Shown piece after piece: positions 9,608 to 64,000 of a stretch of 64,000 bases of DNA. Origin of the DNA: Setophaga petechia (Eukaryota; Chordata; Aves; Passeriformes; Parulidae); assembly GCA_024362935.1 (NCBI GenBank), contig JANCRA010000117.1, positions 310,001-374,000 of the forward strand. The letters are read 5' to 3'. A program made the translations under genes and the position numbers. The notes under the pieces are model-generated. The model searched no databases and was not told where the DNA came from. It worked only from the letters and a program-made list of their open reading frames with translations. Position 1 is the stretch's first letter, and every line of letters starts with the position of its first letter.

Positions 9608-12600
9608 ATGGCGGGCGGCCCGGCCGCGCTCGCCCTCGGTACGTGCGGGGCTCGGGGGGACTCAGCCCAGCCCGGCCCGGCCCGGTTCGGTTCGGTTCGG
9701 CTCGGCCCGGGGGGCTCCGCGCCCCAAGCCCCGGCCGGACCCCGGAGCGGGGCGGCCCCGGGGGCTCGGGGGGTTCTGCGGGTGGGTTCTGGGAATCGCG
9801 GGAAGGCGGTGAAAATCCTATAGAAATCCCATAAAAACCCCATCAAACCCCGTAAAATTCCCCCGCGCGGGCGCTCCCGAAGTTCGTTCCCTGTGGGAAA
9901 GGCGCCTTCGCCGCGACGCGTGAGTACGGCCGCGGTCAGACGCTTAATTAGAGCGGCTAATTAGGGCTGGGGGCTAATTAGAGTTGCGAGGGGGGTGCCG
10001 GGGGAAGGGGGAGGTGGAGAGCGGGGGCGCTCCGGGCTGGAGCCGAGCCGAGCCGAGCCGGGACGGGACGGGAGCGGGGATGCTCCCGGGGGAAGGACGG
10101 ACGGACGGACGGACGGACGGACGGACGGATCCCGGTGCGGGCGGCTGGAGCTCGGCTGGCTTTGTCCCGCTGTCCCCGCCGGGGGCACCGAGCCGCAGCT
10201 CCGGTATGCCGGTGGGAAAGCGGCTGCGCTTGGCCCCGCTCCAGCGCCCGGTGCTGCCGCGCCGTGTCCCGGGCCGAGCGTCCCCCGGTGGCTCCGGCAC
10301 CGTGTCCCGGTCCCGCTCCTCATCCGAGGCTCCTCCGGTGGCTCCCGCGCCGTGTCCCGGTCTTGCTCCTTATCCGAGGCTCCCTCAAGGGCTCCGAGCG
10401 TCCCCCGGTGGTTCCATCGCCGTGTCCCGGTCCCGCTCCTCCGCTGAGCGTCCCCCGGTGGCTCCAGCGCCGTGTCCCGGTCCGAGCTTCCCTCGGTGGC
10501 TCCGGCACCGTGTCCCGGTTCTGCTCCTCCTCCGAGGTCCCCCTCGGGAGTTCCGAGCGTCCCCCGGTGGCTCCATCACCGTGTCCCGGTCCGAGCGTCC
10601 CCCGGTGGTTCCATCACCGTGTCCCGGTCCCGCTCTTCCGCCGAGCGTCTCCCGGTGGTTCCATCACCGTGTCCCTCCTGTCGAGGCTCATCCCGAGCTC
10701 CCGTGCCCCGTTCTCTCCCGTTCCCGTCCGTTCCCGTGGCTCCGGGGCTCTCTCCGGGGGGCTGAGCGCGGTTCCCCGGCTCTCCGGACGTTCCCGGGTG
10801 GGATCCGGGTGGGACCGGAGCCCTCGGGCCGTGGGGAAGGGAAGGGGAGCGCTCCGGGTCCCTGCAGCGCGGGGCTGGAGCCCGGCGGGGATCGGGACCG
10901 GGAGGGGAATCTTGGAACGCAGCGATAACCCCGGGAATTACCGGGACGGAGCTGCTGGGAAGGTTTGGGAGTCCTTCGGAGGGAGAGATTCCCGGAGATT
11001 CCCGGAGAACGGGGTGGGATGGGCTGGAAAAGCCGGCGGGGGTGGGGATGGGGCAGCCCCGGGCCGGGGCTCCAGCGGGATTGTCCGAGCGTCCGGGGCT
11101 GTCCGGAGGTGTCCCGGGGGTGTCTTGGGGTGTCCGAGGATGTACCGGGGGGTGTCCGGAGGTGTCCGGGGATGTCCGGGGGTGTCCGGGGGTGTCCGGG
11201 GATGTCCGGGGGTGTCCGGGGGTGTCCGGAGGTGTCCGGAGATGTCCGGAGGTGTCCGGGGGGTGTCCGGAGGTGTCCGGGAGTGTCCGGAGGTGTCCAG
11301 GGGTGTCCGGAGGTGTCCGGGGGTGTCCGGGGATGTCCGGGGGTGTCCGGAGGTGTCCAAGGGTGTCCGGAGGTGTCCGGGGGTGTCCGGAGGTGTCCGG
11401 GGGTGTCCGGAGGTGTCCGGGGATGTCCGGGGGTGTCCGGAGGTGTCCGGGGATGTCCCGGGGGGTGTCGGGGAGTGTCCGGGGTGTCTGGGGGTGTCCG
11501 GTGTCCCCAGGCTGGGCCTGGGCATGGAGAACATCCCGAGGGCCAGGATCGGGATGAGGGCTGGGCTCACCACCTGCCCACGGAGAGCTGGGGAGGAGGA
11601 ACCGGAATGCCAAGGGATGGGTGCCCTTGGGGATGGATGCCCACTGATCCCACCGGAATGCCAAGGGATGGATGCCCACCCAGAACCAGAATGCCCACAG
11701 GGATGGATGCCCACTCAGGACCAGAATGCCCAGGAGATGAACACCCACTCAGAACTGGAATGCCCAGGGGATGGATGCCCACTGATCCCACTGGAATGCC
11801 AAGGGATGGATGCCCACTCGGAACCCCGATGCCAGGGGATGGGTGCCCCCCCGAATGCCCTGGGGATGGACGTCCTCTGGGATGGACTCCCACTGGAATG
11901 CCAAGGGATGGATGCCCACTGATCCGACCAGAATGCCAAGGGAATGGATGCCCACTCGGAACAACAATGCCAGGGGATGGATGCCCGCCCAGAACTGGAG
12001 TGCCCAGGGGATGGATGCCCACTCAGGACCAAGATGCCCAGAGATGGATGTCCACTCAGAACAGGAATGCCAAGGGGATGGATGCCCGTTTGGAACCAGA
12101 ATGCCCACAGGGATGGATGCCCACTGATCCCACTGGAATGCCAAGGGGATGGATGCCCACCCAGAACCAGAATGCCCACTGGGATGGATGCCCACTCAGG
12201 ACCAGAATGCCCAGGAGATGAATGCCCACTCAGAACCTGGATGCCCACCCAAAACTGGAGTGCCCAGGGGATGGATGCCCACAGGGATGGAGGCCCACTG
12301 CTCCCATCAGGATGCCCAGGGGATGGATGCCCACTCATCCCACCCTGATGCCAGGGGGATGGATGCCCACCCAGAACTGGAATGCCAAGGGATGGATGCC
12401 CACTGATCTCACTGGAATGCCAAGGGATTGATGCCCAGCCAGAACTGGAATGCCCAAGGGGTGGATGCCCACTGATCCCATCAGGATGCCCACAGGGAAT
12501 TCCTGCGTTTTCCTTCAAAATCTTGAGATTTTTCCCTTAAAAATTTCCTTAAAATTCCTGCGTTTTCCTTCCAAATCTTGAAGATTTTTCCTTCAAAATC

Positions 12601-15600: not shown

Positions 15601-18600
15601 TGTCCCTGCATCTGCCCCTTTTTCCCAACCCTTCCTGGGGGCTGCTCCCCCGTGGTTTTTTTGGGATTTCCCCAAAATCCCCTTTTTTCTCCCCGTTTTC
15701 CCAGCCCCGGTGGCGGCGGCGGTGCGGTCGCACTTCAACGAGTGCCCGGACTCGCACCGGCAGTTCTGCTTCCACGGCACCTGCCGCTTCCTGGTGCAGG
15801 AGGAGAAACCTGCCTGTGTGTGAGTGCCTAAATCCCTGAGAAACCCCAAAACTGTGAGAGAAACCTGCCTGTGTGTGAGTGCCTCAATCCCATAACCCCG
15901 AAATTATGGGGGCAGGAGAGCCTGTGTGTGAGTGCCTAAATCCCTGAGAAACCCCAAAACTGTGAGAGAAACCCGCCTGCGTGTGAGTGCCTAAATCCCT
16001 GAGAAACCCCAAAACTGTGAGAGAAACCTGCCTGCGTGTGAGTGCCTAAATCCCCTAACCCTGAGAGTGTAGGGGCAGGAGAGCCTGTGTGTGAGTGCCT
16101 AAATCCCTGAGAAACCCCAAAACTGTGAGAGAAACCCGCCTGCGTGTGAGTGCCTCAATCCCCTAACCCCAGACTGGGGGAGAAACCCGCCTGTGTGTGA
16201 GTGCCTAAATCCCCTAACCCTGAAATTATGGGGGCAAGAGAATCTGTGTGTGAGTGCCTAAATCCCCTAACCCTGAGAGTGTAGGGGCAGGAGAACCTGT
16301 GTGTGAGTGCCTGAGAAACCCACCTGCGTGTGAGTGCCTAAATCCCCTAACCCTGAAAGTGTAGGGGCAGGCAAACCTGTGTGTGAGTGCCTAAATCCCC
16401 TAACCCCGAACTGTGAGAGAAACCCGCCTGTGTGTGAGTGCCTCAATCCCCTAACCCTGAAAGTGTAGGGGCAGGAGAGCCTGTGTGTGAGTGCCTAAAT
16501 CCCTGAGAAACCCCAAAACTGTGAGAGAAACCTGCCTGCGTGTGTGTGCCTCAATCCCCTAACCCTGAAAGTGTAGGGGCAGGAGAACCTGTGTGTGAGT
16601 GCCTCAGTCCCCTAACCCCGAAACTGTAGGGTCAAATCCCTCAAAACTATGGGATCAGGAGGAGAAACCCGCCTGTGTGTGAGTGCCTAAATCCCCTAAC
16701 CCCGAAATTATGGGGGCAAGAGAATCTTGTGTGTGAGTGCCTAAATCCCCTAACCATGAAATTATGGGGGCAAGAGAACCTGTGTGTGAGTGCCTAAATC
16801 CCTAAGAAACCCCAAAACTGTGAGAGAAACCCGCCTGTGTGTGAGTGCCTAAATCCCCTAACCCCGAAATTATGGGGGCAGGAGGAGAAACCTGCTTGTG
16901 TGTGAGTGCCTAAATCCCTGAGAAACCCCAAAACTGTAAGAGAAACCCGCCTGTGTGTGAGTGCCTCAATCCCCTAACCCCGAAATTATGGGGGCAGGAG
17001 AATCTGTGTGTGAGTGCCTAAACCCCCTAACCCTGAAATTATGGGGGCAAGAGAATCTGCGTGTGAGTGCCTAAATCCCCTAACCGTAAACTGTGGGAGA
17101 AACCTGCTTTTGTGTGAGTGCCTCAATCCCCTAACCCTGAAATTATGGGGGCAGGAGAATCTCTGTGTGAGTACCTAAATCCCTGAGAAACCCCAAAACT
17201 GTGGGGGAAACCCACTTGTGTGTGAGTGCCTAAATCCCCTAACCCCAGAACTGTGGGTTTGGTGTCCCAGTGCTCCCCAAATTCAGGATTTGGTGTCCTG
17301 GGGATCCCAAAACTCTGGGCTGACCTGCCCTGTGTGTCCCCAGGTGTCACTCAGGGCTCATGGGGACACTCTGACCTGCTCTGTGTCCCTGTGTGTCCCC
17401 AGGTGTCACTCGGGGTACATGGGGACACTCTGACCTGCCCTGTGTCCCCAGGTGTCCCTCGGGGTACGTGGGGACACTCTGACCTGCTCTGTGTCCCTGT
17501 GTCCCCAGGTGTCACTCGGGGTACGTGGGGACGCGCTGTGAGCACGCTGACCTGCTGGCCGTGGTGGCGGCCACCCAGAAGAAGCAGACCATCACTGCCC
17601 TGCTCGTGGTGGCCGTGGTGGCCTCGGCCCTGCTCGTCACCGTCTGCGTCCTGGTCCAGTGAGTGCCACCGGGGCATCCCTGGGGACAGCCGAGGGACCC
17701 CGACCCTGTCCCTGTTCCCTGTCCCCATTCCCTATCCCTGACCCTGTCCCCAACCCCATCTCCAACCTGGTTCCTGTCCCCATTTCCAGTGTCCCCATTC
17801 CCTGTCCCCATTCCCCATGTCCCCGTCCCTGTCCCCATTCCCATTCCCCGTGTCCCCATTCCCCATCCCCATTCACTATCCCTGCCCCTGTCCCTGTCCC
17901 CAGCCCCATCTCCAACCTGGTTCCTGTCCCCCATCCCTGTCCCCTGTCCCCATTCCATCCCCATTCCCTGTCCCCTGTCCCTGTGTGCCCGTGTCCCCTG
18001 TCCCCATTCCCATTTCCTGTGTCCCCTGTCCCCATTCCCATTTCCTGTGTCCCCGTCCCCATTCCCTGTCCCCATTCCCTGTGTCCCTGTGTCCCCATTC
18101 CTCATCCCTGTCCCCATTCCCTATGTCCCCACCTCTGTCCCCATTCCCCATCCCTGTCCCCATTCCCTGTCCCCATCCCTGTCCCTGTCCCCATTCTGTG
18201 CGTCCCCATTCCCATGTCCTGTGTCCCCATCCGTGTCCCTATTCCCCGTGTCCCTGTGTCCTATCCTTGTGCCCATCCCCATTCCCTGTGCCCCCATGTC
18301 CCTGTCCCCATGTCTCCATATCTATGTTGCTGTCCCCATGTCCCTGTCCCCGTTGCTGTCCCCAGCTGCTGTCGCCTGCAGAAGCGCTGGCCCTGTCCCC
18401 GTGTCACTGTCCCCATATCCCATTCCCTGTCCCCATGTCCCTTTCGCTGTCCCCATGTCTCCATATCTGTGTCGCTGTCCCCATTCCCTATGTCCCCATG
18501 TCCCTGTCCCCATGTCCCCGTTGCTGTCCCCAGCTGCTGTCGCCTGCAGAAGCGCTGGCCCTGTCCCCATGTCACTGTCCCCATATCCCATTCCCTGTCT

Positions 18601-20080
18601 CCATGTCCTTGTCCCCATGTCACTTTCGCTGTCCCCATGTCTCCATATCTGTGTCGCTGTCCCCATTCCCCATATCCCCATGTCCCTGTCCCTGTCCCAT
18701 CCCTGTCCCTGTTGCTGTCCCCAGCTGCTGTCGCCTGCGGAAGCGCTGGCCCTGTCCCTGTCCCCATATCCCTGTCCCCATGTCCATGCTGCTGTTCCCA
18801 TTCCCTATATCCCCATGTCCCTGTCCCTGTCCCATCCCTGTCCCCGTTGCTGTCCCCAGCTGCTGTCGCCTGCGGAAGCGCTGGCCCTGGCCCTGGCCCT
18901 GTCCCCATATCCCTGTCCCTGTCCCCATGTCCATGCTGCTGTCCCCATGTCCATGTCCCCATGTCCCTGTCCCCATGTCGCTTTCGCTGTCCCCATGTCT
19001 CCATATCTGTGTCGCTGTCCCCATGTCCCTGTCCCATCCCTGTCCCCGTTGCTGTCCCCAGCTGCTGTCGCCTGCGGAAGCGCTGGCCCTGGCCCTGTCC
19101 CTGTCCCTGTCCCGGTTGGTGCCGCGAGCCCGGAGCTGGACCCGAGAAACCGGGGGGGCTGCTCAAGGGGGGAGCGTCCTGCTGCCACAGCGAGACAGGT
19201 GAGGGACACCTGGGGACACCTGGGGACACCTGGGGACACCTGGGGACACATTGGGACACCTGGGGACACCTGGGGTGACAGGAGAAAGCGGGGGGCTGCT
19301 CAAGGGGGGAGCGTCCTGCTGCCACAGCGAGACAGGTGAGGGACACAGGGGACAGGGGAGGGGACACATTGGGACACCTGGGGACACCTGGGGACACTGG
19401 GGGTGACAGGAGAAACTGGGGGGCTGCTCAATGGAGGGAGCATCCTGCTGCCACAGCGAGACAGGTGAGGGACACCTGGGGACACCTGGGGACACCTGGG
19501 GACACTGGGGGTGACAGGAGAAACCGGGGGGCTGCTCAATGGAGGGAGCGTCCTGCTGCCACAGCGAGACAGGTGAGGGACACCTGGGGACACCTGGGAC
19601 AGGGGAAGGGACACCTGAGGCACAGGGGACACTTGGGACAGGTGAGGGGACACCTGGGGACATCCATGGGACACTTGGGAACACCTGGGAGAGGTGGGGG
19701 ACACCTGGGACACCTGGGGACATCCATGGGACAAGGGAGGGACACATTTGGACACCTGGGACAGGTGGGGGACACCTGGGGTGGGGGGCACATCCTGCTG
19801 CCACAGTGAGACAGGTGAGGGACACAGGGGACACCTGGGGACATCCATGGGATACCTGGGGATTCTCGGGACAGGGGAGGGACACCTGAAGACATCCATG
19901 GGACACCTTGGGACACCTGGGGACATCCATGGGACACCTGGGGACACCTGGGACAGGTGAGGGGACACCTGGGGACATCCATGGGATACCTGGGGACACC
20001 TGGGACAGGTGGGGGGACACAGGGGACAGGTGACACCCTGGTGTGTAACCACTGCCATTCCTGTCCCCACAGGTGTGTGA
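9608..20080 (+). CDS. TGFA: protransforming growth factor alpha, six coding exons
   Basis: Membrane-anchored precursor of the EGF-receptor ligand TGF-alpha; shedding releases the EGF-like domain. Coding exons: 9608-9638, 12828-12881, 15705-15819, 17509-17658, 19062-19198, 20073-20080 (164 aa; human 160). Residues 1-20 form the signal peptide. The mature ligand is about residues 35-84, with all six EGF cysteines in order (NEC, QFC, GTC, PAC, VC, RC). A transmembrane helix spans about 95-116, and the Cys-rich tail ends ETGV with the C-terminal valine that matters for TGFA trafficking. The start has a strong Kozak context (gccATGg) in a CpG island. Exon edges are joined without frame loss. The tail carries an unusual [13 protein letters not shown] segment made by the surrounding tgtccc repeat. 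Exons 3, 4 and 5 have many tandem copies of their edges in the introns, so the exact acceptor used for exons 4 and 5 is inferred from frame and homology. Confidence 0.95.
9945..9980. promoter_or_regulatory. three TAATTA homeodomain-type sites in TGFA intron 1
   Basis: TAATTA occurs at 9945-9950, 9958-9963 and 9975-9980, spaced 13 and 17 bp, inside otherwise CpG-rich DNA just downstream of exon 1. TAATTA is the core bound by many homeodomain proteins. Function is inferred only. Confidence 0.35.
10095..10129. repeat. (GGAC)n microsatellite
   Basis: About nine uninterrupted GGAC units in TGFA intron 1. Confidence 0.95.
10260..10690. repeat. ~40-70 bp GC-rich minisatellite in TGFA intron 1
   Basis: Units of gagcgtcccccggtggctcc followed by accgtgtcccggtcc repeat with variable spacers. 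Confidence 0.88.
11095..11500. repeat. 12 bp minisatellite (ggtgtccgggga) in TGFA intron 1
   Basis: About thirty units of ggtgtccgggga / ggtgtccggagg run head to tail. Confidence 0.95.
11600..12490. repeat. ~38-45 bp minisatellite (gatggatgcccactc type)
   Basis: Units of aatgcccaggggatggatgc followed by ccactcagaaccag fill this part of TGFA intron 1. Confidence 0.92.
12500..12735. repeat. AT-rich ~45-60 bp tandem repeat
   Basis: Units of aaaattcctgcgttttcctt followed by caaaatcttgaagattttt repeat just upstream of TGFA exon 2. Confidence 0.88.
13030..13640. repeat. ~24 bp minisatellite (ggccccaaaaacaaaggggt)
   Basis: A tight array of ctggccccaaaaacaaaggg units in TGFA intron 2, degrading toward its 3' side. 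Confidence 0.93.
13660..14640. repeat. ~40-48 bp minisatellite (gacaccccaaggtggctttt)
   Basis: Units of ggacaccccaaggtggcttt followed by tcccagctctggggacatgg, with a longer higher-order block (compare 13880-14060 with 14335-14480), in TGFA intron 2. Confidence 0.93.
14807..14849. repeat. (TCC)n microsatellite
   Basis: About fourteen TCC units in TGFA intron 2. Confidence 0.95.
14955..15595. repeat. ~20-30 bp minisatellite (gggaaatctccttttggggt)
   Basis: A degenerate array of gggaaatctccttttggggt units just upstream of TGFA exon 3. Confidence 0.92.
15820..17240 (+). repeat. array of 26 copies of the TGFA exon 3 donor edge
   Basis: The real exon 3 ends with gaaacctgcctgtgt and the donor GTGAGT at 15820. 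Downstream, 26 copies of gaaacc(t/c)gcctgtgtgtgagtgcct follow with spacers such as aaatcccctaaccctgaaat, at about 50-60 bp. Almost all keep the GTGAGT donor and the codons for Lys-Pro-Ala-Cys-Val or part of them. The array fills most of intron 3. Confidence 0.95.
17340..17508 (+). repeat. three copies of the TGFA exon 4 acceptor edge
   Basis: Copies of cccaggtgtc(a/c)ctcggggtac at about 17342, 17401 and 17451 precede the real acceptor at 17507-17508. Entering at the 17401 copy gives an in-frame TGA within about eleven codons (after ATG GGG ACA CTC), so this copy would truncate the EGF module. Confidence 0.92.
17690..19061 (+). repeat. tgtccc-rich repeat with four decoy copies of the TGFA exon 5 acceptor
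   Basis: Intron 4 is built from tgtccccattccc / tgtccctgtccc units. Embedded are four copies of gttgctgtccccag plus exon 5 start ctgctgtcgcctgc(a/g)gaagcg, with exon positions beginning at 18366, 18534, 18725 and 18860. The real exon begins at 19062. The copies at 18366 and 18534 are in frame with 19062 and the frame between is open. Confidence 0.93.
19199..20045 (+). repeat. array with four copies of the TGFA exon 5 donor edge
   Basis: After the real exon 5 donor at 19199, copies of tcctgctgccacagcgagac plus the AGGTGAGGG donor end at about 19335, 19464, 19572 and 19814, separated by ggacacctggggacacctgg repeats. Confidence 0.92.
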
Positions 20081-20364: not shown

Positions 20365-20985
20365 TGAATTTAAATCCCAGGAAACCTCCTCGGGCTGGAG
20401 GCACAGCCTTAATTCCCCCTTAGTAACCAACCCAGAGCTTTTCCCTCTGTTTTGGGGTTGTTTTTGGGGTTGTTTTGGGGTTTTTTGGTTGTTTTTTTTT
20501 TTTTAAAGTCATGGTTACTCTCATGTCTTCTGTATATGTTGCACTGAAAGTTAATATTTAATGTTTTAATTTATTTCGCCTGGTTTAAATTAATTTTGAT
20601 TCCTATAAAGATGTTCTTGTCATCACCTGGTCTTGGGGTTTTTATTTTTTTTTTTTTTCCATCCTAAAAAAACTGGGTTAGAGTTATTTAAGTGATGTAA
20701 AAACAATTTTTTTTACAGAAAATTTGTGGTTTGGGGTTTTTTGGGGAGGAATATTTAGGAAGGAGATGCTGAATCCCACAGCTGGGAGTGGGGGGATATT
20801 CCCAGGGAATGGCGGAGCCCCAAATTCCCAAATTTTCATCCCAAATTTGCCCCAATATCAAACTCAGACCAATTTTCCCATCATTTTATACCAAATTTTG
20901 AAGCCTGATGTTCCAATAATGAACTCAGCCCCATTTCTCCATTATTTAATTCCAAATTTTGAAGCCCAGGCCCAAATTCCCAAAT
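20365..20985. other. AT-rich unique sequence, possible extended TGFA 3' UTR
   Basis: Unlike the rest of the window this stretch is AT-rich and non-repetitive (for example gttaatatttaatgttttaa near 20550). It probably continues the TGFA 3' UTR. No coding exon is seen. Confidence 0.4.
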
Positions 20986-21545: not shown

Positions 21546-21699
21546 CTCCCAAATGGTCCTGACACCAAAAAAAAAGGTTCTTACCCCAAAAGCAGGGTCC
21601 TGACCCCAAAAGGAGGGTTCTAACCCCAAATGGAGACTCCTGACCCCAAAAAGAGGGTCTTGACCCTCAAAAGGGAGTTCTGATCCCACCATGGACGTC

Positions 21700-23145
21700 C
21701 CCTGGGTGTCACTTGCGGCGCAGGTAGAAGGTGGTGGCACTGGGATGTCCCCAGGTGTCACTTGCGGCGCAGGTGGAAGGCGGTGGCTGTGATGGATGTC
21801 CCCAATCCCGGATGTCCCCAGGTGTCACTTGCGGCGCAGGTAGAAGGCGGTGGTGGCACCAGGGATGTCCCCAATCCTGGATGTCCCCAGGTGTCACTTG
21901 CGGCGCAGGTAGAAGGCAGTGGTGACACCATGGATGTCCCCAGGTGTCACTTGCGGCGCAGGTAGAAGGCGGTGGTGACACCGAGGATGTCCCCAGGTGT
22001 CACTTGCGGCACAGGTAGAAGGCGGTGGCAGTGATGGATGTCCCCAGGTGTCACTTGCGGCGCAGGTAGAAGGCGGTGGCAGTGATGGATGTCCCCAGGT
22101 GTCACTTGCGGCACAGGTAGAAGGCGGTGGCAGTGATGGATGTCCCCAGGTGTCACTTGCGGCGCAGGTAGAAGGCGGTGGCAGTGATGGATGTCCCCAG
22201 GTGTCACTTGCGGCGCAGGTAGAAGGCGGTGGCAGTGATGGATGTCCCCAGGTGTCACTTGCGGCGCAGGTAGAAGGCGGTGGCTGTGATGGATGTCCCC
22301 AATCCTGGATGTCCCCAGGTGTCACTTGCGGCGCAGGTAGAAGGCGGTGGTGACACCATGGATGTCCCCAGGTGTCACTTGCGGCGCAGGTAGAAGGCGG
22401 TGGCAGTGATGGATGTCCCCAGGTGTCACTTGCGGCACAGGTAGAAGGCGGTGGCAGTGATGGATGTCCCCAGGTGTCACTTGCGGCACAGGTAGAAGGC
22501 GGTGGCAGTGATGGATGTCCCCAGGTGTCACTTGCGGCGCAGGTAGAAGGCGGTGGCAGTGATGGATGTCCCCAGGTGTCACTTGCGGCGCAGGTAGAAG
22601 GCGGTGGCAGTGATGGATGTCCCCAGGTGTCACTTGCGGCGCAGGTAGAAGGCGGTGGCTGTGATGGATGTCCCCAATCCTGGATGTCCCCAGGTGTCAC
22701 TTGCGGCGCAGGTAGAAGGCGGTGGTGACACCATGGATGTCCCCAGGTGTCACTTGCGGCGCAGGTAGAAGGCGGTGGCAGTGATGGATGTCCCCAGGTG
22801 TCACTTGCGGCGCAGGTAGAAGGCGGTGGTGGCACTGGGATGTCCCCAGGTGTCACTTGCGGCACAGGTAGAAGGCGGTGGCAGTGATGGATGTCCCCAG
22901 GTGTCACTTGCGGGCAGGTAGAAGGCGGTGGCTGTGATGGATGTCCCCAATCCCGGATGTCCCCAGGTGTCACTTGCGGCGCAGGTAGAAGGCGGTGGTG
23001 GCACTGGGATGTCCCCAGGTGTCACTTGCGGCGCAGGTAGAAGGCGGTGGCAGTGATGGATGTCCCCAGGTGTCACTGTCACTTGCGGCGCAGGTAGAAG
23101 GCGGTGGCAGTGATGGATGTCCCCAATCCCGGATGTCCCCAGGTG
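21700..23145 (-). repeat. 26-copy array of the IL36 terminal codons and stop
   Basis: On the minus strand each unit reads gccaccgccttctacctgcg then ccgcaagtgacacctgggga, encoding Ala-Phe-Tyr-Leu-Arg-Arg-Lys-stop exactly as the real gene end at 23146. Units are about 51 bp, with some 66 bp variants carrying an extra aatcctggatgtcccc. I count 26 copies 3' of the real stop, forming the 3' UTR or immediate downstream DNA. Confidence 0.95.
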
Positions 23146-26100
23146 TCACTTGCGGCGCAGGTAGAAGGCGGTGGCGCCCGGCGCCGGGGCCAGGCCCAGC
23201 GGCTCCTCCGGGGCCGTGCTGAGGAAGAGCCCGGGGAAGGCGGCGGCCTCGAAGGTGTGCGTGGAGCCCCCGAAGGTCTTGTAGAAGGTGAAGGGCGTGG
23301 CCCTGTCCTTGTCCCCCGAGAACAGATCCATCAGCCCCACGTCCTGCCGGGCAGGGGACACAAAGTGCTGGCACCAAATGGGGCAGCCGTGGCCTGGTGG
23401 TGTCACCTCGGGGAACGACCAACTGCAGGTGGCACCATCCCCAGGGGATCTCAACTCAAGGTGACCCCATCTCCAGGTGTCCCCACCTCAAGGAACCCAC
23501 ACTGACCCAATTTCCAGGTGATCTCACCTCCAGGTGACCCCAGCTCCAGGTGACCCCATCTCCAGGTGTCCCCATCTCAAGGAACCCACACTGATCCCAT
23601 CTCCTGGTCACCCCATCTCCAGCCAAGCCCCCTCCAGGTGACCCCATCTCCAGGTGACTCCACCTCCAGGTGACGCCACCTCAAGGAACCTCCATCTCTG
23701 ATGACAACAACATCAGGGCCACACCCCCAGGTGACCACACCCCCAGGTGATGCCGTCATCACCTGCCCTGGGGAATCCCCACTTCCCGGTGACCCCGCCT
23801 CCAGGTTGGCATCTCTTTGGGATGACGCCACTCCCAGGTGCCCCACCTTGGTCTGACCCACCTTGGGCTGCCCCAGCCCTGGGCGCCCTCACCTTGGCTC
23901 ACCCACCTTGAGCTGAGCCATTTTTGGGTCCCCACCACCCCAGGGTGGCCCCACTTTGAGTTGGTCCACCTTGAGTTGATCCAGCTCCAGCTGACCCACC
24001 TTGATTGCCCCACCTTGACTGACCCACTTAAGTTTGACCCAACTTGGACTGACCTAAATTGAGCTGACCCACCTTGGATTGACCACCTTGGATTGACCCA
24101 CCTTGGGTTGACCACCTCGATTGACCCAACTTTGGGTCCCAACCACCTCTGGATGTCCCCACCTTGACTGACCCACCTTTTATTGACCCACCTAAGACTG
24201 ACCACCTTGGATTGACCCACCTTGGGTTGCCCTTGATTGACCCACTGTGACTGACCCACCTTGGTTTGACCACCTTGATTGACCCACCTTGGATTGGTCC
24301 ACCTTGGTTTGACCACCTTGATTGACCCACCTTGACTGACCCAACTTGGATTGACCCACCTTGACTGACCCACCTTGGTTTGACCACCTTGATTGACGCA
24401 CCTTGCCTTGTCCCATCTCAAGCTGTCCCACCATGGCCTGTCCCACCTTTGTGTCCCCACAGCCCCACATTGAGTCACCCCCAGCCCCCTGTGCCACCCT
24501 CATGTCCCCCCGGTCCCTGCGCCACCCCTGTGTCCCCCGTGTCCCCCCCGTGTCACCTCCAGGCTCAGCTGGGGCTCGGAGCCGGTGCCACAGGACAGGG
24601 CGCGGGTGCCACCGCGGATGCCCACGATGAGGGGACAGCGCTGGCGCTCCAGGTGCCGGTTGGGGACAACGCTGATGGGCTCTGTGGGACACGGGGGTGT
24701 CACCGCTGTGCCCCCAGGGTGTCACCCATGGATTGTCACCCTTGTCCTCCCTGAGGGACACCCATGGATTGTCACCCCTGTTTCCCCCCAGGGTGTCACC
24801 CACGGAGTGTCACTGCTGTCCTCCTGGTGTCACCCACGGATTGTCACCCCCCGGGTGTCACCACCTTCCAGGGCAGCATTGGTCACCTGCAGGTGGTGAC
24901 CACCAGAGGGACACCCATGGATTGTCACCCATTGGCAGTGTCACCCGTGGATTGTCACCTCTTTTTCCCCCCAGGGTGTGACCCACGGATTGTCACCCAC
25001 GGATTGTCACCCCCCAGGTGTCACCCACCTTCCAGGGCAGCATTGGTCACCTGCAGGTGGTGACCACCAGAGGGTCCCCCATGGATTGTCACCCATTGGC
25101 AGTGTCACCCGTGGATTGTCACATCTGTTTCCCCCCAGGGTGTCACCCAGGGATTGTCACGCACAGATTGTCCCCCCCCGGGTGTCACCACCTTCCTGGG
25201 CGGCGTTGGCGCCCTGCAGGCTGGTGGCCACCAGGTGTCCGTGGCGCAGGCACAGCCCCTGCTGCTCCGTGTCCCGCAGCACGTACTGGTACGGCCGCGG
25301 CTGCGGCTGCAGCGCCGGGCGCAACCCGGGCACCGTCACCCCTGGGGACACGGGGACACGGGGACAGGTGAGACACGGGGACACGGGGACGGACAGGTGG
25401 GACATGGGGATGGATGGGTAAGGACATGGGGACACAGGGACAGACAGGTGGGGATGTGAGACATGGGACACGGGCACGGACAGGCGAGACACAGGATGGA
25501 CGGGTAAGGACATGGGACATGGGGACAACACAGGGATATGGGGATGGACGGGTAAGGACATGGGGACACGGGGATGGACAGGTGGGACATGGGGATGGAT
25601 GGGTAAGGACATGGGGACAGACAGGTGAGATGTGGGGATGGACAGGTAAGGACGTGGGGACACAGGGACAGACGGATGGGACACGGGGATGGACAGGTGG
25701 GGACATGGGGATGGATGGGTAAGGACATGGGGACACAGGCACAGACAGGTGGGACACAGGGATGGATGGGTAAGGACACGGGGACAGACAGGTGGGACAC
25801 GGGGATGGACGGGTAAGGACATGGGGACATGGGGACATCACAGGGACATGGGGATAGACAGGTGGGCACATGGGGACATGGGACACAGGGACACAAGGAC
25901 AGACTGGTGGGACATGGGGAATGGACGGGTAAGGACATGGGACACAGGGACAGACAGGTGGGGGTGTGGGACATGGGGACACGGGGACAGACAGGTGGGA
26001 CGCGGGGATGGACAGGTAAGGACATGGGACACGGGGACATCACAGGGACATGGGGATAGACAGGTGGGCACAGGGGACACAGGGACACAGGGACAGACAG

Positions 26101-27984: not shown

Positions 27985-27990
27985 TTTATT
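27985..27990 (-). terminator. IL1RN: AATAAA polyadenylation signal of IL1RN
   Basis: Minus-strand AATAAA (tttatt on +) lies 459 bp past the IL1RN stop, after a repeat-rich 3' UTR. It is the first canonical signal I find downstream. Confidence 0.6.
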
Positions 27991-28049
27991 CCCGCACCGG
28001 AGCCCGGGGAGGATGTCGCTGTCCCCAGGGGGGTGGCACCGCACCGCGG

Positions 28050-43300: not shown

Positions 43301-44964
43301 ACTGGGAATGGGGTCAGCCACACCTGGGCCATGTGCCCGAGTACCTGGGTACCCAAAAATGGGGCAAAAAAGGGGGAAATTGGGAAAAAAACAGGGGGAA
43401 ATGGGAAAACAGTTGAAATTTGGGGAAAAAATGGGAGAAACATTGAAATTTGGGAAAAAAACGGGGAAAAAATGGGAAAAAAATTGAATTTTGGGGGGAA
43501 AAATGGGAAATGGGGCAAAAAAGGGGAAAATTGGGGAAAAAAAAACAGGGGGAAATGGGAAAAAATTTGAAATTTTGGGGAAAAATGGGAAATGGGGAAC
43601 TGGAAATGGGGTCAGCCCCACCAGGGCCACTGGGTACCTAAACGGGGCAAAAAAGGGGGAAATTGGGAAAATACGGAAATTTTGGGGAAAAGCAGGAAAA
43701 AAATTGAAATTTAGGGGAAAAAATGGGATTAAAATGGGGGGAATGGGGGAAGTCGGGGCCCGGGGTGGTTTTGGGGTGGGCAGGGGGGCAATTGGGGCCC
43801 AGGGGTGGTTTTGGGGTGGGCAGTGGGGCAGTTGGGGCCCAGGGGTGGTTTTGGGGTGCACCAACCCCCTTTGTGCCCCCAGTGCCCCCCAGTCTCCGCG
43901 GCATCGCCGACCCCAACCCCAAAAAGAGGAAAAGTGCCCGAGGGGCTGGAGCCAGGCGGGGGGGAAAGAAGGTGAGGGACCCCCCCAAATTCCACCCCCA
44001 AAATCCCCTAAATTCCGCCCCAAAATTCCCACAAAATCCCCCAAATTCCCTCCCCAAAATTCCCGCAAAATGCCCCAAATTCCTTCCTCAAAATTCCCCC
44101 CAAATTCCCTCCTCAAAATTCTCCCCAAATCCCCCAAATTCCCTCCCCCAAATTCCCCCCAAATCCCCCAAATTCCCTCCTCAAAATTCTCCCAAATTCC
44201 CTCCCCAAAACTCCCCAAATTCTCCCCAAAATCCCCCAAATTCCCTCCCCAAAATTCCCGCAAAATGCCCCAAATTCCTTCCTCAAAAATCCCCCCACAT
44301 TCCCTCCCCAAAATTCCCACAAAATCCCCCCAAATTCCCTCCCCAAAATTCCCCGCAAATCCTCCAAATTCCCTCCCCAAAATTCCCGCAAAATGCTCCA
44401 AATTCCTTCCTCAAAATTCTCCCCAAATCCCCCAAGTTCCCTCCCCAAAATTCCCACAAATTCCCCCCAAATTCCCTCCCCCAAATTCCCCCCAAATCCC
44501 CCAAATTCCCTCCTCAAAATCCCCCAAATTCCCTCCCCCAAATCCCCCAAATTCCCTCCTCAAAATTCTCCCAAATTCCCTCCCCAAAACTCCCCAAATT
44601 CTCCCCAAAATCCCTCCCCAAAATTCCCGCAAAATGCCCCAAATTCCTTCCTCAAAATTCTCCCCAAATCCCCCAAATTCCCTCCTCAAAATTCCCCCCA
44701 AATCCTCCAAATTCCCTCCCCAAAACTCCCCAAATTCCCTCCCCAAAATTCCCCCAAACTCCCCCAAAATCCCCCAAATTCCCTCCCCCAAATCCTCCCC
44801 AAATTCCCCCAAATCCTCCTCAAACCCCCCCTGACCCTTGACCTGTGCCCCCTGACCCTTGACCTGTCCCCGTTTCTCCTCAGCCCCGCGGCTCCGGGAA
44901 TCCCCTGCAGAGCTTCAGGTTCACCCAGCGAGGGAACAGACGGGGGGCAAAGGGCACCCCCTGA
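34303..44964 (+). CDS. DDX56: DEAD-box RNA helicase DDX56, 14 exons
   Basis: Nucleolar ATP-dependent RNA helicase acting in pre-60S ribosome assembly. Exons: 34303-34365, 34731-34892, 35293-35453, 35939-36109, 36779-36869, 37918-38162, 40096-40209, 40823-41008, 41614-41708, 41807-41880, 42489-42578, 42896-43001, 43883-43971, 44884-44964 (575 aa; human 547). Motifs in order: Q motif with Gln35, ARTGSGKT 52-59, PSAELA (Ia), TPGR (Ib), DEAD 167-170, SAT 198-200, LLFVGS (IV), SRGIDF 369-374, HRVGRTAR 394-401. The C-terminus is basic ([18 protein letters not shown]). Exon 8 has a [12 protein letters not shown] run absent from human. Copied exon edges make the exon 2 donor and the exon 6, 7 and 11 acceptors ambiguous; I chose those giving human-like sequence. 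An acceptor copy at 40757 is rejected because it runs into TGA. Confidence 0.95.
34893..35210 (+). repeat. four in-frame copies of DDX56 exon 2 end and donor
   Basis: Copies of ctgctgcacaaactgctggg plus catcaaagag|gtactg end at 34973, 35054, 35117 and 35198. Spacings from the first donor (34892) are 81, 81, 63 and 81 bp, all multiples of three, and the frame is open throughout. Between them lie gatactgggg repeats. Confidence 0.95.
35547..35615 (+). repeat. degenerate copy of DDX56 exon 4 start in intron 3
   Basis: cccaggccggtgca then gtggtgggcacacctgg and tcctggcacacctggccggg correspond to the exon 4 start at 35937-36015, with an internal deletion of about 20 bp. The rest of the intron is a gtgtcccctgacccctccc repeat. 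Confidence 0.85.
36115..36560. repeat. short G/A-rich repeat (ggggacacgggggacag) in DDX56 intron 4
   Basis: Degenerate ~12-20 bp units of aggggacatggggggaca; a ggttttggggtgccc repeat follows to 36770. Confidence 0.88.
37050..37917 (+). repeat. eight decoy copies of DDX56 exon 6 acceptor and first codons
   Basis: Each unit has ttccag followed by gt(c/g)ca(c/t)gt.ctgcccccc and gagccccgtctcccgggcag. Copies begin near 37055, 37186, 37284, 37369, 37499, 37586, 37701 and 37832; the real exon begins at 37918. Spacers read caattttgggattttaaccc. The first copy hits TAG right after Ser-Gln-Leu-Gln. Confidence 0.95.
38163..39845 (+). repeat. array of copies of DDX56 exon 6 end and donor
   Basis: Units of ~110-290 bp contain tgtgccctcaacccacagct and gcccgccaggtca(t/c)ggtgag (near 38273, 38588 and 38850), then increasingly diverged copies near 39318, 39500 and 39680. 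Each repeats the codons for [11 protein letters not shown] and its donor. Between them lies a gggtgggatttatgggaatt repeat. Confidence 0.92.
39850..40095 (+). repeat. three copies of DDX56 exon 7 acceptor
   Basis: Copies of ctgtccctgtcccacaggtg plus cctggtgacactggg at about 39854, 39929 and 40025 precede the real acceptor at 40094-40095. Confidence 0.9.
40200..40815 (+). repeat. array derived from DDX56 exon 7 end, plus exon 8 acceptor copy
   Basis: gacacagccaggtca and gaatggggacactggggaca units echo the exon 7 end (gacacggccag|gtcaga) at about 40270, 40368 and 40462 and, more loosely, at 40560 and 40610. At 40745-40800 a copy of the exon 8 acceptor (tgtcccctcaggaagggtga) precedes the real one at 40821-40822. 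Confidence 0.85.
41070..41250 (+). repeat. two copies of DDX56 exon 8 end with donor
   Basis: aacttcaatgtccccaactc then tacatccaccgcgtgggcag|gtgtgac recurs with donors at about 41129 and 41249, 120 bp apart. The motif VI codons YIHRVGR are repeated exactly. Confidence 0.95.
41280..41612. repeat. C-rich minisatellite (gtgtccctgtccccac) in DDX56 intron 8
   Basis: ~20-70 bp units with gtgtccccagggtgtccc blocks. Confidence 0.85.
41930..42488 (+). repeat. five decoy copies of DDX56 exon 11 acceptor
   Basis: ccccagga(t/c)gccatgc(g/a) followed by tgctgtcaccaagcagg occurs with starts at 41978, 42075, 42184, 42284 and 42392. The real exon starts at 42489. Period about 100 bp, with tgtcccaatgatgtccccag spacers. 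Confidence 0.95.
43002..43720 (+). repeat. copies of DDX56 exon 12 end with donor, A/G-rich spacers
   Basis: cacctgggcca(c/t)gtgcccga and gtacctgggtacccaaaaat recur near 43142 and 43316, and in part near 43612. Between them are gggggaaatgggaaaaa units. Confidence 0.92.
43980..44825. repeat. ~20-45 bp minisatellite (ccaaattccctccccaaaat)
   Basis: A near-continuous array of ccccaaattccctcc(c/t)caaaattc units fills DDX56 intron 13, with larger duplicated blocks. Confidence 0.93.
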
Positions 44965-45485
44965 GCCTGGCACAGCTGGCACAGCTGGGGGCAGTGCCAC
45001 CTGGGCACCCCCTGAGAGCCTGGCACAGCTGGCACGGCTGGGGGCGTCCCCTGAGCCTGGCACAGCTGGGGGCACCCCCTGAGAGCCTCCTGGGCACCCC
45101 CTGAGCCACCTGGGCACCCTGTGAGAGCCTCCTGGGCACCCCCTGAGAGCCTGGCACACCTGGGCACTTCCTGGGATCCTGCCACACCTGGGCACCCTCT
45201 GAACACCTGGGGGCACCCCCTGAGAGCCTGGCACAGCTAGGGACACCCTCTGTGCCAGCTGGGCAACCCCTGAGAGCCTGGGCACCCTCTGAGCACCTAG
45301 GGGCACCCACTGAGCCTGGGGGCACCCCCTGAGTGCCTGGCACCCCTGGGGACAGCTGGAGGCACCCCCTGAGCCACCCGGGCACCCCCTGTGCCAGCCT
45401 GGGGACGCTGCTGTCACCCTCAGAACCCCTGGGCACACCCTGGGGTCACCACGGCCACCCCCTGTGCCACCCTGGGGACCCACCT
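44945..45485 (+). repeat. array of DDX56 terminal codons and stop in its 3' UTR
   Basis: The coding end gggcaccccctgagcc (Gly-Thr-Pro-stop) is echoed about a dozen times as gggcaccccctgag with cctggcacagctggg spacers. Confidence 0.88.
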
Positions 45486-49800: not shown

Positions 49801-52800
49801 CCGCCTGGCACTCAGCGCCTGGCAGCAGGATGGCAAACTGCAGGGCACCGTGGACTGGCACGACCACATCATCTACTGCGTCAAGTGGGTGCCGCGGGCG
49901 GGGGGCACGGGGGGTCCCTCTGAGGGGGTGGCATGGTCACCATTGGGTGCCCAGGTGTGGGGTTTGGGTGCCCCAAGGGTGCTGGACGCGGCTTGGTGCC
50001 CATGGGGTGCCCAGTTGTGGAGCTGGGGTGATGCCCATGGGGCTCTGTCCATGATTTGGTGCCCATGGGGTGCCCATTTGTGGAGCTGGGGTGGCATCTA
50101 TGGGGCACCGGGCACTGCTAGGCACTTGTGGGATGCCAGGTCTGGGGGTTTGGGTGCTCTCTGTGGGGCACTCAGGGGGTCAGGGTGCCACCCACTGCTC
50201 CCAGAGGGTCCCCTCCGTGTCCCCCAGCATGTCCAGGTGCCTGTGGGGTGCCAGGCTCAGGGGTTGGGCTGTCACCCGGGTGTCCCCCATCACTGTTGGT
50301 GCCAGGCCGTGTCTCTGGGGTGCCACCTCTATGTCCCCATCACTCTGGGATGCCTGCCCGTGGGTTCAGGGTGCCACCCACGTGTCCCCCATGCCATCCG
50401 GGTGCCCCGCGGGTGGCAGCGGGCGCGGGGCCGGGGCCGGGCGGGCACAGCCCCCGCTGACGGCCCGGCCCTGTCGCCGCCAGCTCCCCGCTCTCCTTCA
50501 AGGACGTCACGGCGCTGGAGCTGAGCTGCATGGCCGAGTACGGCGGGCCCGTGTTCCCCTACATCGCCCTGGGCGGATACCGCGGTACGGGGCTGCTTTG
50601 GGGGTGTCCCCGCCGTGTCCCCCCGCGCTGTGCCCGCGGTGTGACCGCCGTGTCCCCGCAGAGTCCGAGTACACGGAGGCCGAGGCGCTCATTGTCACCT
50701 ACTCGCTGAACAATTTCCCCGCGGGGGATCCGCGCCTGGAGTGGGCGCAGAGCTGGGAGCGGCAGTTCCTGAGCGTGGTGCGCGACTTCCAGCGGCGCCA
50801 CCGCCACAACCTCTCGGTCACCTTCATGGCCGAGGTGGGCGCCGTGTCCCCTGCGCGTCCCTGTGTGTCCCCTGTGTGACCGCCGTATCCCTTTTGTGTC
50901 CCCTGCGTGTCCCCTCCGTGTCCCTGTGTGACCGCCATGTCCCCTCCGTATCCCCTCTGTGAGCCCCAAGTCCCCTCCATGTCCCCTCCGTATCTCCTCT
51001 GTGTTCCCTCCGTGTCCCCTCCTTGTCCCCTGCGTGTCCCCTCTGTGTCCCCTTTGTGACCTCTGTTTCCCCTCCGTGTCCCTGTGTGACCCCCGTGTCC
51101 CCTCCGTGTCTCCTCTGCGTTGTCTCCGTGTCCCCCCCGTGTCCCTGTCCCCCCCGTGTCCCTGTGTCCGTAGTGGCCTCAGCGAACTCCTTGTCCCCTC
51201 CATGCCCCTGGTGGCCCTGTGACCCTGTGGCCATGTGCCACCTCCATGTCCCCTCAGTGTCCCCATTGTCCCTGTGCCACTTCCATGTCCCCAGTGCCCC
51301 TTGTGCCTGCAATGCCCCCACGTCCCTGTGCCGCTTCCATGTCCCCAGTGTCCCCCATGCCCCTGGTGCCTCCAGTGTCCCCTACGTCCCTGTCCCCCCT
51401 CTATGTCCCCATGTCCCCTCCATGTCCCCAGTGTCCCCAGTGTATAGGCGCTCCCCGTGTCCCCCGTGCCCCTGGTGCCCGCAGTGCCTCCCCTGCCCCT
51501 GTCCCCCCTCTATGTCCCCAGTGTCCCCCGTGCCCCCGGTGCCCCCTACGTCCCTGTCCCTCCTCTATGTCCCCATGTCCCCTCCATGTCCCCAGTGTCC
51601 CCCGTGCCCCTGGTGCCTTCAATGCCCCCTTGTCCCTGTCCCCCCTCCATGTCCCCAGTGTCCCCCGTGCCCCTGGTGCCCGCAGTGCCCCCCCTGCCCC
51701 TGTCCCCCCTCTATGTCCCGGTGTCCCCGGTGTCCCCGGTGTCCCCTCACTGTCGCTGTCCCCTCAGCGCTCTCTGGAGGATGAGATCAACCGCACGAGC
51801 GGGGAGGACATCCCGGTGTTCGCCGTCAGTTACCTGCTGGTGTTCGCCTACATCGCGCTGGCCCTGGGCGAGTACACGGCCTGGAGGAGGGTCCTGGTGA
51901 GCCGGGGGGCACCGGGGGGCACCGAGGGGGGCACAGGGACCTGGTGAGCCGGGGAGAACCGGGGGCACCGGGTGGCACTGGGGGCACCGGGGCACAGGGG
52001 CCTTGGTGAGCCCCGGAAGGGTTTGGGGGGCTCGGGGGGTGCAACCCCGGGAGGGTCGGTTTGGGGGGTCCTGGGGGTTTTGGGGTGGCACAGGGACCTG
52101 GTGAGCCCCGGGAGGGTCGGTTTGGGGGGATTCGAGGGGCTCGGAGGGGTCGGTTTGGGAGGATTCCAGGAAAGTTTGGGAAAATCCGGAGGGATTCGGG
52201 GGGATCCGGGAGGGTTCGGGGGGATCCCGGTGATCCCCGGGGCACTCCGGGGTGGTGGCAACAGCCATGGGGGGCTCGGGGGTGCCCACCCGGGGGTGCC
52301 GATCCAGGGGTTCTGACCCGTGGTGCCCACCCGGGGGTGCCAGTCCGGGGAGGTTCGGGGGTGCCCACCCGAGGATCCTGACCCGGGGGTGCCGGCCCTG
52401 GGTTCTGACCCGTGGTGCCCACTCGGGGATGCCAGTCCGGGGCTGCTGATCCGGGGTGCCCACCCGGGGGTTTCGGGGGTGCCCACCCGGGGATCCTGAC
52501 CCGTGGTGCCCACCCGGGGGTGCCCGCAGGTGGAGTCGAAGGTGACGCTGGCGCTGGGTGGCATCGCGGTGGTGCTGGGGGCCGTGCTGGCCGCCATGGG
52601 GCTGCTGGCGCTGCTGGGGCTGCCCTCGTCCCTCATCATCATCGAGGTCGTGCCCTTCCTCGTGCTGGCCGTGGGCGCCGACAACATCTTCATCTTCGTG
52701 CAGGAGCTGCAGGTGGGCACGGGGGGCACCGAGGGCACCGAGGGTGGGGGCACATTTCAGGACAGGGATCCCCACGGGGCAAGGCTGGCATCTGTGGGCA

Positions 52801-61683: not shown

Positions 61684-61730
<47 letters not shown>

Positions 61731-61867: not shown

Positions 61868-62109
61868 GCCCCATCTTCGCCCCCCCCGCGCCCCTCCCCC
61901 CTCTCTATTTAAACTGGTTTTGTCACATCTGCACTGGTCGGACTGGGATGGATGGGGGGGAACGGGCTGGGGACATGGGGACGGCGTGGGGACACTGTGT
62001 GGGACACAGGGACATGGGGACGGCATGTGGGACACGGGGACACTGTGGGGACAGGATGTGGGGCACAAGAACACTGTGGGGACACGAGGCCATGTGGGGA
62101 CAGGGACTT

Positions 62110-63062
62110 TAGGAACATTTATGGGTTTATTTCCTAGAGGAACTTGTAAGGCACATCCCAGAGCATTCCTTCAGGAACATTCACAGGTGTTTTAGGAACA
62201 TTTACACGTGTTTTAGGGCCATTTACAGGTGTTTTAGGGCCATTTACAGGTGTTTTAGGGCCATTCACGGGTTTATCCCTAGAGGAACTTGTAGGGCACA
62301 TCCCAGATCATTCCTTTAGGAACATTTACAGGTTTTTAGGAACATTTACAGGTGTTATAGGAACATTTATGTGTTTATTCCCTAGAGGAACTTGTAGAGC
62401 ACATCCCAGAGCATTCCTTCAGGAACATTGATAGATTTTTAGGAACATTTACAGGTTTTTAGGAACATTCACAGGTTTCTTAGGAACATTCACGGGTTTA
62501 TCCCTAGAGGAACTTGTAAGGCACATCCCAGATCAATCCCTTAAGAACATTTACAGGTTTTTAGGAACATTTATGTGTTTATTCCCTAGAGGAACTTGTA
62601 GAGCACATCCCAGAGCACTCCTTTAGGAACAATTGTGAGTTTTTTAGGAACATTTACAGGTTTTTTAGGAACATTTACAGGCGTTTTAGGGCCATTCACG
62701 GGTTTATCCCTAGAGGAACTTGTAGGGCACATCCCAGATCAATCCCTTAAGAACATTTACAGGTTTTTAGGAACATTTATGTGTTTATTCCCTAGAGGAA
62801 CTTGTAGAGCACATCCCAGATCATTCCTTTAGGAACATTTACAGGTTTTTAGGAACACTTACAGGTGTTATAGGAACATTTATGTGTTTATTCCCTAGAG
62901 GAACTTGTAGAGCACATCCCAGAGCACTCCTTTAGGAACAATTGTGAGTTTTTTAGGAACATTTACGGGTTTTTAGGAACATTTACAGGTTTTTAGGAAC
63001 ATTCATTTACAGGTGTTTTAGGAACATTCAGAGGTGTTTCAGGGCCATTCACGGGTCTATCC
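62110..63062 (-). repeat. array of the MRPS24 stop-codon region
   Basis: Minus-strand units of ~100-190 bp carry tacaagttcctctaggg (Tyr-Lys-Phe-Leu-stop) at about 62135, 62280, 62383, 62504, 62588, 62710, 62793 and 62895. Several continue into AATAAAC and aaaacctgtaaatgttcct blocks. The real stop is 63065-63063. Confidence 0.93.
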
Positions 63063-64000
63063 CTAGAGGAACTTGTAGGGCAGGGGGGCGGGCAGGGTCT
63101 GCAGCTCCAGGCGCACGGGGCACTTGTAGAAGTGCGTGAGCAGGGTCTCGGCGTAGCCCTGCAGGAAGTAGAGCTTGTGTGGCGGCAGCGCCCGCGCCAG
63201 CAGCGCGCACAGCACCAGCAGGTTCCCGCGGCGCTTCAGCACCGGCGCGTCCAGCAGCAGCCCCGGGAACGTCCCCGCCAGGAAGCGCCGCAGGAACGCG
63301 TCCTCCAGGGCCCGCTGGGCGGCGCCCGCCTCGCCATGCAGGTTACCTGGGACACAGGGACACAGGGGACATTGGGGACATTGGGGGACACAGGGGACAC
63401 TGAGTGACCCATCTGTACTACACCTGCCTCACCGTGCAGGTTACCTGGGACAGAGGGGACACAGGGGACACTGAGTGACCCATCTGTACTACACCTGCCT
63501 CGCCACACAGGTTACCTGGGACATAGGGGACACAGGGGACACAGGGGACATTGGGGACACTGAGAGACCCCTGTCTGTGCTGCACTCGCCTCGCCACACA
63601 GGTTCCCTGGGGGACACACAGGTGGCATTGGTGGCACACAGGTGGCACAGGTCACTGTCTGCTGTGCCATGCCCACCTTGCCACAGAGGTTCTCTGAGGG
63701 GACAGGGGGTGGTGGCATTGGTGGCATTGATGGCACTGGGTGCTCAGCCCAGCCATGGTCCTGGCAGGACAGGAGTTGTGTGTCCTGTCCCCAAGATGCC
63801 CATGGGTACTGCATGTCACCGTGCCCACATGTCCCCTGTGTCCGCCCACGTGCCCCACACTGCCCTGTCCTCACGGTGCCCCACGGGCCATCCCCCTGTC
63901 CCCATTCCCCTGTCCCCCAGCCCTGTCCCGTGTCCCCCCTGTCCCCGAGCCCTGTCCCTGTCCCCGTGTCACTCACCAGTGTGCAGGGACAGCCAGCCCT
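63063..64000 (-). CDS. MRPS24: 28S mitochondrial ribosomal protein S24 (uS3m), 3' part; 5' end outside the window
   Basis: Mitochondrial small-subunit ribosomal protein. Terminal exon 63346-63063 plus the end of the preceding exon, 64000-63977, which runs off the window. The partial exon encodes GWLSLHT, and joining gives [12 protein letters not shown], matching the mammalian [13 protein letters not shown] junction. Further family matches are [39 protein letters not shown] and CPVRLELQT, ending YKFL. About 100 residues are visible of a protein that is about 167 aa in human. Both edges of the terminal exon are amplified: its acceptor into the intron and its stop codon into downstream DNA. It converges tail-to-tail with NPC1L1, 1.2 kb apart. 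Confidence 0.93.
63347..63720 (-). repeat. four copies of the MRPS24 last-exon acceptor edge
   Basis: The real acceptor edge on + is cctcgccatgcaggttacct at 63329-63348. Copies (cctgcctcaccgtgcaggtt, cctgcctcgccacacaggtt and two weaker ones) lie near 63423, 63496, 63587 and 63672, each with the tracts around it. On the minus strand they are aacct + acceptor copies; the first two keep an intact cag|gtaacc. Confidence 0.88.

Follow-up and report, generated by a model that had tools for sequence, protein, structure and literature searches.

Why do the tandem arrays of a songbird locus so often contain pieces of the neighboring exons, complete with a splice site or a stop codon? The question arises from 64,000 nucleotides of Setophaga petechia DNA (assembly GCA_024362935.1, contig JANCRA010000117.1, positions 310,001 to 374,000 of the forward strand), hereafter the window. 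An initial annotation had noted arrays that copy exon edges in five neighboring genes, TGFA, IL36RN, TMED4, DDX56 and MRPS24, and had proposed a locus-wide process that duplicates tracts ending at such edges. Our analysis showed that edge-copy arrays are present in all five genes (the second being IL36RN-like) and that duplication favoring exon edges is not supported. The arrays belong to a known phenomenon, for which Hron et al. 2026 (PMC12954441) introduced the names sequence stuttering and exon stuttering, with new features: a songbird host, a counterpart on chicken chromosome 22, stop-codon edges and in-frame spread into coding sequence. The most likely explanation of the window is sequence stuttering, here in a songbird and probably on a microchromosome, in which local duplication acts indiscriminately in noncoding DNA rich in guanine and cytosine (GC) and is trimmed by selection.

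Seven genes, all with open frames, were rebuilt in the window: TGFA, two interleukin-1 (IL-1)-family genes (A and B), TMED4, DDX56, NPC1L1 and a partial MRPS24. Under a strict junction test, in which a copy within 2.5 kilobases (kb) had to match the 30 base pairs (bp) spanning the junction at ≥80% identity, with ≥10 of 15 bases matching on either side, local copies were found at 16 of the 97 splice edges and 3 of the 7 stop codons, and at none of the 5 start codons. A blastn screen patterned on the published one compared each exon with the introns of its own gene and with one 3' flank per gene, using as cut-off the best score among 20 shuffled sets (28.2 bits). In this screen 94 matches lay in adjacent introns or flanks and none above the shuffle maximum in non-adjacent ones. 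Of the 48 introns, 14 had matches, as did 2 of the 7 3' flanks. NPC1L1 intron 18 (23 of the 94 matches) was dropped, since its matches lie about 100 bp away from the border in a shared simple repeat of the GACAGG type; 13 of the 48 introns were left. Among the remaining 71 matches, 54 (76%) begin at most one base from the border, the exonic part has a median of 30 bp, and 56, in 11 introns and one flank, reached the published threshold of 42.1 bits.

The blastn screen added the acceptor sides of TMED4 exon 5 and DDX56 exon 4, where matches begin 13 and 28 bp into the exon, and missed three edges detected by the strict test (the IL36RN-like exon 3 donor, the DDX56 exon 7 donor and the MRPS24 acceptor). 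Together the two methods gave 18 splice edges and three stop codons on both strands, in agreement with the earlier estimate of at least 15 edges. The strongest evidence came from three edges: 14 strict copies for the TGFA exon 3 donor, 24 for the stop codon of gene B and, for the DDX56 exon 6 acceptor, 5 strict copies or 8 by looser criteria. The DDX56 exon 7 acceptor was left uncounted; about five shared exonic bases were seen there by eye and no decoy was counted. Two details of the initial annotation needed correction. Two among the best examples concern stop codons instead of splice sites, and the IL36RN array is present in one of two IL-1-family genes in the window, the other being unaffected.

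The same strict test, applied elsewhere in the window, found local copies at 1968 of 3000 random noncoding positions (66%) and 108 of 2000 exon-interior positions (5.4%), compared with 16.5% of the splice edges. Edges were thus depleted relative to noncoding positions, carrying copies about four times less often (odds ratio 0.10). The fraction of positions with local copies was 2% at 41-60 bp inside the exon and 16.5% at the edge, and reached 34% (16-30 bp), 43% (31-50 bp) and 63% (121-200 bp) within the intron; this distance profile is a smooth climb, and the edge does not stand out as a peak. The result held for six combinations of exonic and intronic length, with copies at 14-16 of the 97 edges and at 57-65% of 800 random noncoding points. 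A comparison of arrays from Tandem Repeats Finder (TRF) with shuffled positions, which the initial annotation had suggested as a check, turned out against it: the arrays span 13 of the 97 splice edges, whereas 1703 rotations of the array map gave a mean of 60.9 (range, 45-80). Of the proposed locus-wide process, therefore, the local duplication is real and the targeting of edges is unsupported, and seeding at edges was rejected on the gradient, the random positions and the rotations alike. Indiscriminate duplication, with selection against products that touch coding sequence, would give such intermediate values at edges. The edge copies look targeted, and it is tempting to read them so; yet they fit this account.

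In this account, short tracts of tens to a few hundred bp would be duplicated in tandem, repeatedly and anywhere in GC-rich noncoding DNA, by slippage, template switching or unequal exchange. Some of the tracts would overlap an exon edge by chance. Extra copies on the noncoding side would leave the coding sequence intact and be nearly neutral, because the exon body would still have the true donor or acceptor as its nearest site, or because translation would end at the first stop codon. Duplications deeper in exons would be purged unless they are in frame, and a smooth gradient with intermediate edges, as observed, would be the outcome. Since stop codons and intergenic DNA are affected as well, neither splicing nor transcription has to be invoked as the trigger, and a transcription-linked or splice-site-bound process, suggested in the initial annotation, was rejected on the same grounds.

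The initial annotation knew of no named system of this kind. According to the passages of Hron et al. 2026 that deal with these features (PMC12954441), stuttering was described mainly on chicken dot chromosomes, where 86% of introns vary in length; chromosomes 22, 25 and 33 have slightly elevated variability, and exon-stuttering introns also include 10 on non-dot microchromosomes and 36 on macrochromosomes. The same passages mention intergenic repeats, local expansions in some other birds, left unnamed there, and the pattern in GC-rich genes of gerbils, and state that repeats crossing into exons were not observed. The main text of that paper contains none of the terms "stop codon", "UTR" and "passerine", and "exon stuttering" was found in no other paper among the matches listed by full-text literature searches on the topic.

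The window resembles chicken stuttering in its introns, which are dominated by imperfect local tandem repeats (78% of intronic bases), in the copying of lateral exon sequence, together with the donor or acceptor, into the adjacent intron (the 13 introns above), in the strictly local position of the copies, and in the involvement of intergenic DNA and GC-rich genes. The exonic part is of similar length (median 30 bp here, 36 bp in the chicken passages), and fewer matches begin within one base of the border (76% here, >90% there). It differs in its host and in the stop-codon edges, which set it apart from published stuttering. Our gene models are open, yet in TGFA exon 5 and DDX56 exon 8 there are in-frame repeat expansions, which are missing from most of the birds aligned. 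Minisatellites, or variable number tandem repeats, likewise consist of imperfect tandem units of 10-100 bp, form a small part of a gene and are probably length-variable, as the arrays here probably are; unlike ordinary minisatellites, the arrays occupy the greater part of the noncoding DNA and include fragments of coding sequence.

Chicken TGFA lies on chromosome 22 at 3.01 megabases according to one source (PMC3679733), and chromosome 22 is not among the chicken dot chromosomes as listed in another (16, 29-32 and 34-38; PMC9974502). TGFA and DDX56 were found on equally sized listed contigs in zebra finch, Chamaea, Pelecanus, Nyctibius, Rhea and Pithys, so the two genes probably share one chromosome in those birds. 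Stuttering can thus be dense in a songbird, in genes with a chicken chromosome 22 counterpart, and its arrays can take in stop codons besides splice sites, with an occasional in-frame extension into coding exons.

Several points weigh against indiscriminate duplication trimmed by selection. The first is NPC1L1, which the initial annotation had described as rich in arrays and free of edge copies. Arrays cover 75% of its intronic bases, similar to the other genes, yet none of its 36 edges passed the strict test, compared with 16 of 61 elsewhere (Fisher p=0.0004), and such a contrast is not predicted by a uniform process under equal constraint. The description did not hold entirely: when 8-10 exonic bases were counted, the exon 5 donor had copies with a short exonic part (1/36; p=0.015 and 0.008), and for edges spanned by TRF arrays the difference was 2/36 versus 11/61 (p=0.12). 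Under these three other criteria p ranged from 0.008 to 0.12, so NPC1L1 as a protected gene is strong on one criterion and weak on another. The array units of NPC1L1 have a median of 27 bp, compared with 36-77 bp in the other genes, and shorter units may lower the chance of spanning an edge. Further, a higher duplication rate at edges may be masked by selection that removes most products, and a lower rate at edges would give the same picture as selection there. Both the selection on edge duplications and the duplication mechanism are proposals made here from one assembled sequence.

Copied splice sites were counted as decoys by looser criteria at 20 hand-picked edges. Intact decoys were present at 18 of them, 62 in total, and several scored equal to or above the real site in a simple matrix. 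Use of a decoy would give an in-frame open product in 8 of the 62 cases and a frameshift or an added stop in the other 54, yet the genes were modeled with open frames, in line with indiscriminate duplication trimmed by selection. The real site was always the nearest to the exon body. If exon definition follows a nearest-pair rule, the real sites would be picked correctly. The 62 decoys, many of them matching the real sites in score, offer a natural test of how the spliceosome chooses the correct site. At DDX56 exon 2, read-through or use of a decoy would add repeat peptides.

The decoys also bear on the possibility that arrays arise anywhere and a functional edge, preserved by selection, acts as a master copy, from which touching arrays are re-seeded or gene-converted so that decoy signals stay fresh. 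As the initial annotation had claimed, copies keep an intact donor or acceptor: of 55 copies at 17 edges, 54 retained GT or AG, where flanking identity would predict 81%. The splice dinucleotide was joint best-kept of 31 dinucleotide positions (36/38 donor copies, 27/27 acceptor copies), and control noncoding arrays showed no such excess of GT or AG. When decoys were compared with the decoy consensus, the splice dinucleotide matched in 51 of 51 cases, versus 1108 of 1286 (86%) for other non-CpG dinucleotides (naive p=0.0005). We regard this excess conservation as suggestive and do not claim it, because copies within an array are not independent, the alignment is centered on the junction, which therefore falls where the query aligns best, and the real site is under constraint, enough by itself to raise the identity seen there. 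For these reasons re-seeding from a master copy appears unlikely.

An alternative that fares less well is a process seeded at edges, in which an event at the boundary (splicing, R-loops or repair) starts the duplication and the arrays then spread outward. The higher frequency of copies at splice edges than at exon-interior positions, the retained GT and AG, and the matches that begin at the border would all be explained by it. The depletion of edges relative to noncoding positions, the missing peak at distance zero and the arrays at stop codons and in intergenic DNA make it quite improbable. An assembly artefact, with long-read errors or misjoined repeats producing the copies, has in its favor that such regions are hard to assemble and that a single assembled sequence was analyzed. 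The copies differ from one another, however, and the gene models remain open across the arrays. In chicken, the passage on PHF8 reports a repeat structure verified in raw nanopore reads (PMC12954441). A predicted blue jay DDX56 isoform resembles the exon 11 decoy continuing into repeat DNA; the DDX56 exon 11 edge may therefore stutter in corvids too, as far as a database gene model can tell, and on all these points an artefact is very hard to credit. That duplicated alternative exons have been retained for function is scarcely plausible, because the in-frame open decoys, which include all of those at DDX56 exon 2, are outnumbered by 54 unsuitable ones and the copies are fragments of edges and not entire exons.

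In line with duplication that is purged from exons unless it is in frame, in-frame repeats were found in two coding exons. The nine residues PWPCPCPCP in TGFA exon 5 are encoded by a CCCTG-type repeat that is also present in the flanking intron. An alignment of 23 TGFA proteins, chosen from 120 listed, showed an insert of this type and of varying length in Ammospiza, Camarhynchus, zebra finch and Agelaius. It was absent from the remaining passerines with sequence over this part (Sylvia, Chamaea, Dicaeum, Acridotheres and Pithys), and from the ten other birds, alligator, turtle and human in the alignment; the Onychostruthus model leaves this part uncovered. Among 29 DDX56 proteins, also chosen from 120 listed, the KGDK repeat of exon 8 was longest in the window, shorter in Haemorhous, Agelaius, Pyrgilauda and Onychostruthus, and absent from zebra finch and the aligned non-passerines; Chamaea carries a different insert at this position. 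A more far-reaching reading makes edges permanent master copies, which would keep dozens of intact decoy sites and stop codons fresh, with occasional in-frame expansion of exons. We consider this combination rather doubtful; if it were true, stuttering would contribute to protein change beyond the dot chromosomes.

Table 1. Arrays, single copies and in-frame repeats at exon edges and in coding exons of the window.
Feature	Position	Strand	Observation
TGFA exon 3 donor array	15803..17257	+	unit ~53 bp; GTGTGAGT at 26 sites, the real one among them; 14 strict copies
TGFA exon 4 acceptor array	17320..17532	+	3 decoys ahead of real acceptor (exon start 17509)
TGFA exon 5 acceptor array	18344..19113	+	4 decoys ahead of real acceptor (exon start 19062)
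TGFA exon 5 in-frame coding repeat	19087..19113	+	27 bp, PWPCPCPCP; similar insert in some songbirds only
TGFA exon 5 donor array	19186..19832	+	4 decoys past real donor (exon end 19198)
Gene B (IL36RN-like) stop array	21693..23175	-	last ~30 coding bases plus TGA, repeated in 3' region; 24 strict copies, 26 BLAST matches, 27 CGCAAGTGA including the real one
Gene B (IL36RN-like) exon 3 donor array	24698..25234	-	diverged copies; 1 strict
TMED4 exon 3 donor	31790..31860	+	single copy in intron 3
TMED4 exon 4 acceptor	32391..32450	+	single copy in intron 3
TMED4 exon 5 acceptor side	33070..33520	+	diverged copies in intron 4; 3 by eye, 2 BLAST matches
DDX56 exon 2 donor array	34857..35262	+	4 decoys at +81, 162, 225 and 306 bp; all in-frame and open
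DDX56 exon 4 acceptor side	35545..35612	+	1 diverged copy (BLAST and eye); 0 by decoy count
DDX56 exon 6 acceptor array	37054..37962	+	8 decoys (5 strict) ahead of real acceptor (exon start 37918)
DDX56 exon 6 donor array	38131..39800	+	only 3 decoys pass similarity cut
DDX56 exon 7 donor array	40167..40738	+	
DDX56 exon 8 acceptor	40755..40822	+	1 decoy
DDX56 exon 8 coding KGDK repeat	40823..40878	+	in-frame; varies among songbirds
DDX56 exon 8 donor array	40953..41273	+	2 decoys
DDX56 exon 11 acceptor array	41945..42516	+	5 decoys (4 strict)
DDX56 exon 12 donor array	42968..43593	+	2 copies, 1 without GT
DDX56 stop codon and 3' flank array	44962..45404	+	~10 coding bases per unit; 1 strict copy; none by BLAST
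NPC1L1 exon 5 donor copies	51890..52110	+	short exonic part; sole candidate in NPC1L1
MRPS24 stop codon and 3' flank array	62108..63080	-	9 AAGTTCCTCTAG including the real one; 3 strict copies, 4 BLAST matches
MRPS24 acceptor array	63347..63700	-	ahead of real acceptor (exon start 63346)

The exons were placed by hand from the sequence and then verified by translation; a splice-site exon scan returned nothing at its first thresholds, and a looser scan supplied candidates for NPC1L1. Translation was open from start to stop in TGFA (6 exons), gene B (5), TMED4 (5), DDX56 (14) and NPC1L1 (19). The first exon is missing from the model of gene A, and of MRPS24 the window contains the last two exons, one of them truncated by the window end. 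GT and AG were present at every junction of the models. Matches in PDB and Pfam support the identities of NPC1L1, MRPS24, the TMED family and the IL-1 family. The top PDB match of the TMED gene was TMED9; we take the gene to be TMED4, following the initial annotation. The PDB matches of the DDX56 stretch were other DEAD-box helicases, and TGFA, DDX56 and gene B (interleukin-36 receptor antagonist-like) were named from protein searches, in which the nearest relatives among the matches listed were songbirds: Ammospiza and Camarhynchus for TGFA (99%), Haemorhous for DDX56 (96%) and Melospiza for gene B (86%). These matches point to a nine-primaried songbird as the probable source.

In 2-kb steps the GC content of the window ranged from 49 to 72%. 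Tandem Repeats Finder gave 126 merged arrays, which cover 64.9% of the window, 73% of its noncoding bases versus 9% of its coding bases, with 78% cover in introns and 65% in intergenic DNA. Quadruplex motifs numbered 289, versus about 48 in ten shuffles of 500-bp blocks, a comparison in which the repeats themselves multiply such motifs.

The two IL-1-family genes lie in tandem on the minus strand (20501-30200), gene A at 28449-29784 and gene B at 23146-26767. Gene A has short introns and no edge copies, and gene B has the stop-codon array. A Coccothraustes IL36RN-like protein continues beyond the usual stop, and its additional residues (RHLGTSGTGD...) resemble the 3' array of gene B. In NPC1L1, exon 19 (61584-61867, plus strand) ends in a long DRDRDR/KEKEK repeat tail, and the GACAGG-type repeat also fills intron 18; exon 7 opens at a GGCAGCAGCAG run (52911-52922, plus strand), which makes its acceptor ambiguous by one or two codons. 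A 438-bp tandem unit at positions 1513-2581 (2.4 copies, 92% matches) is far longer than most units nearby.

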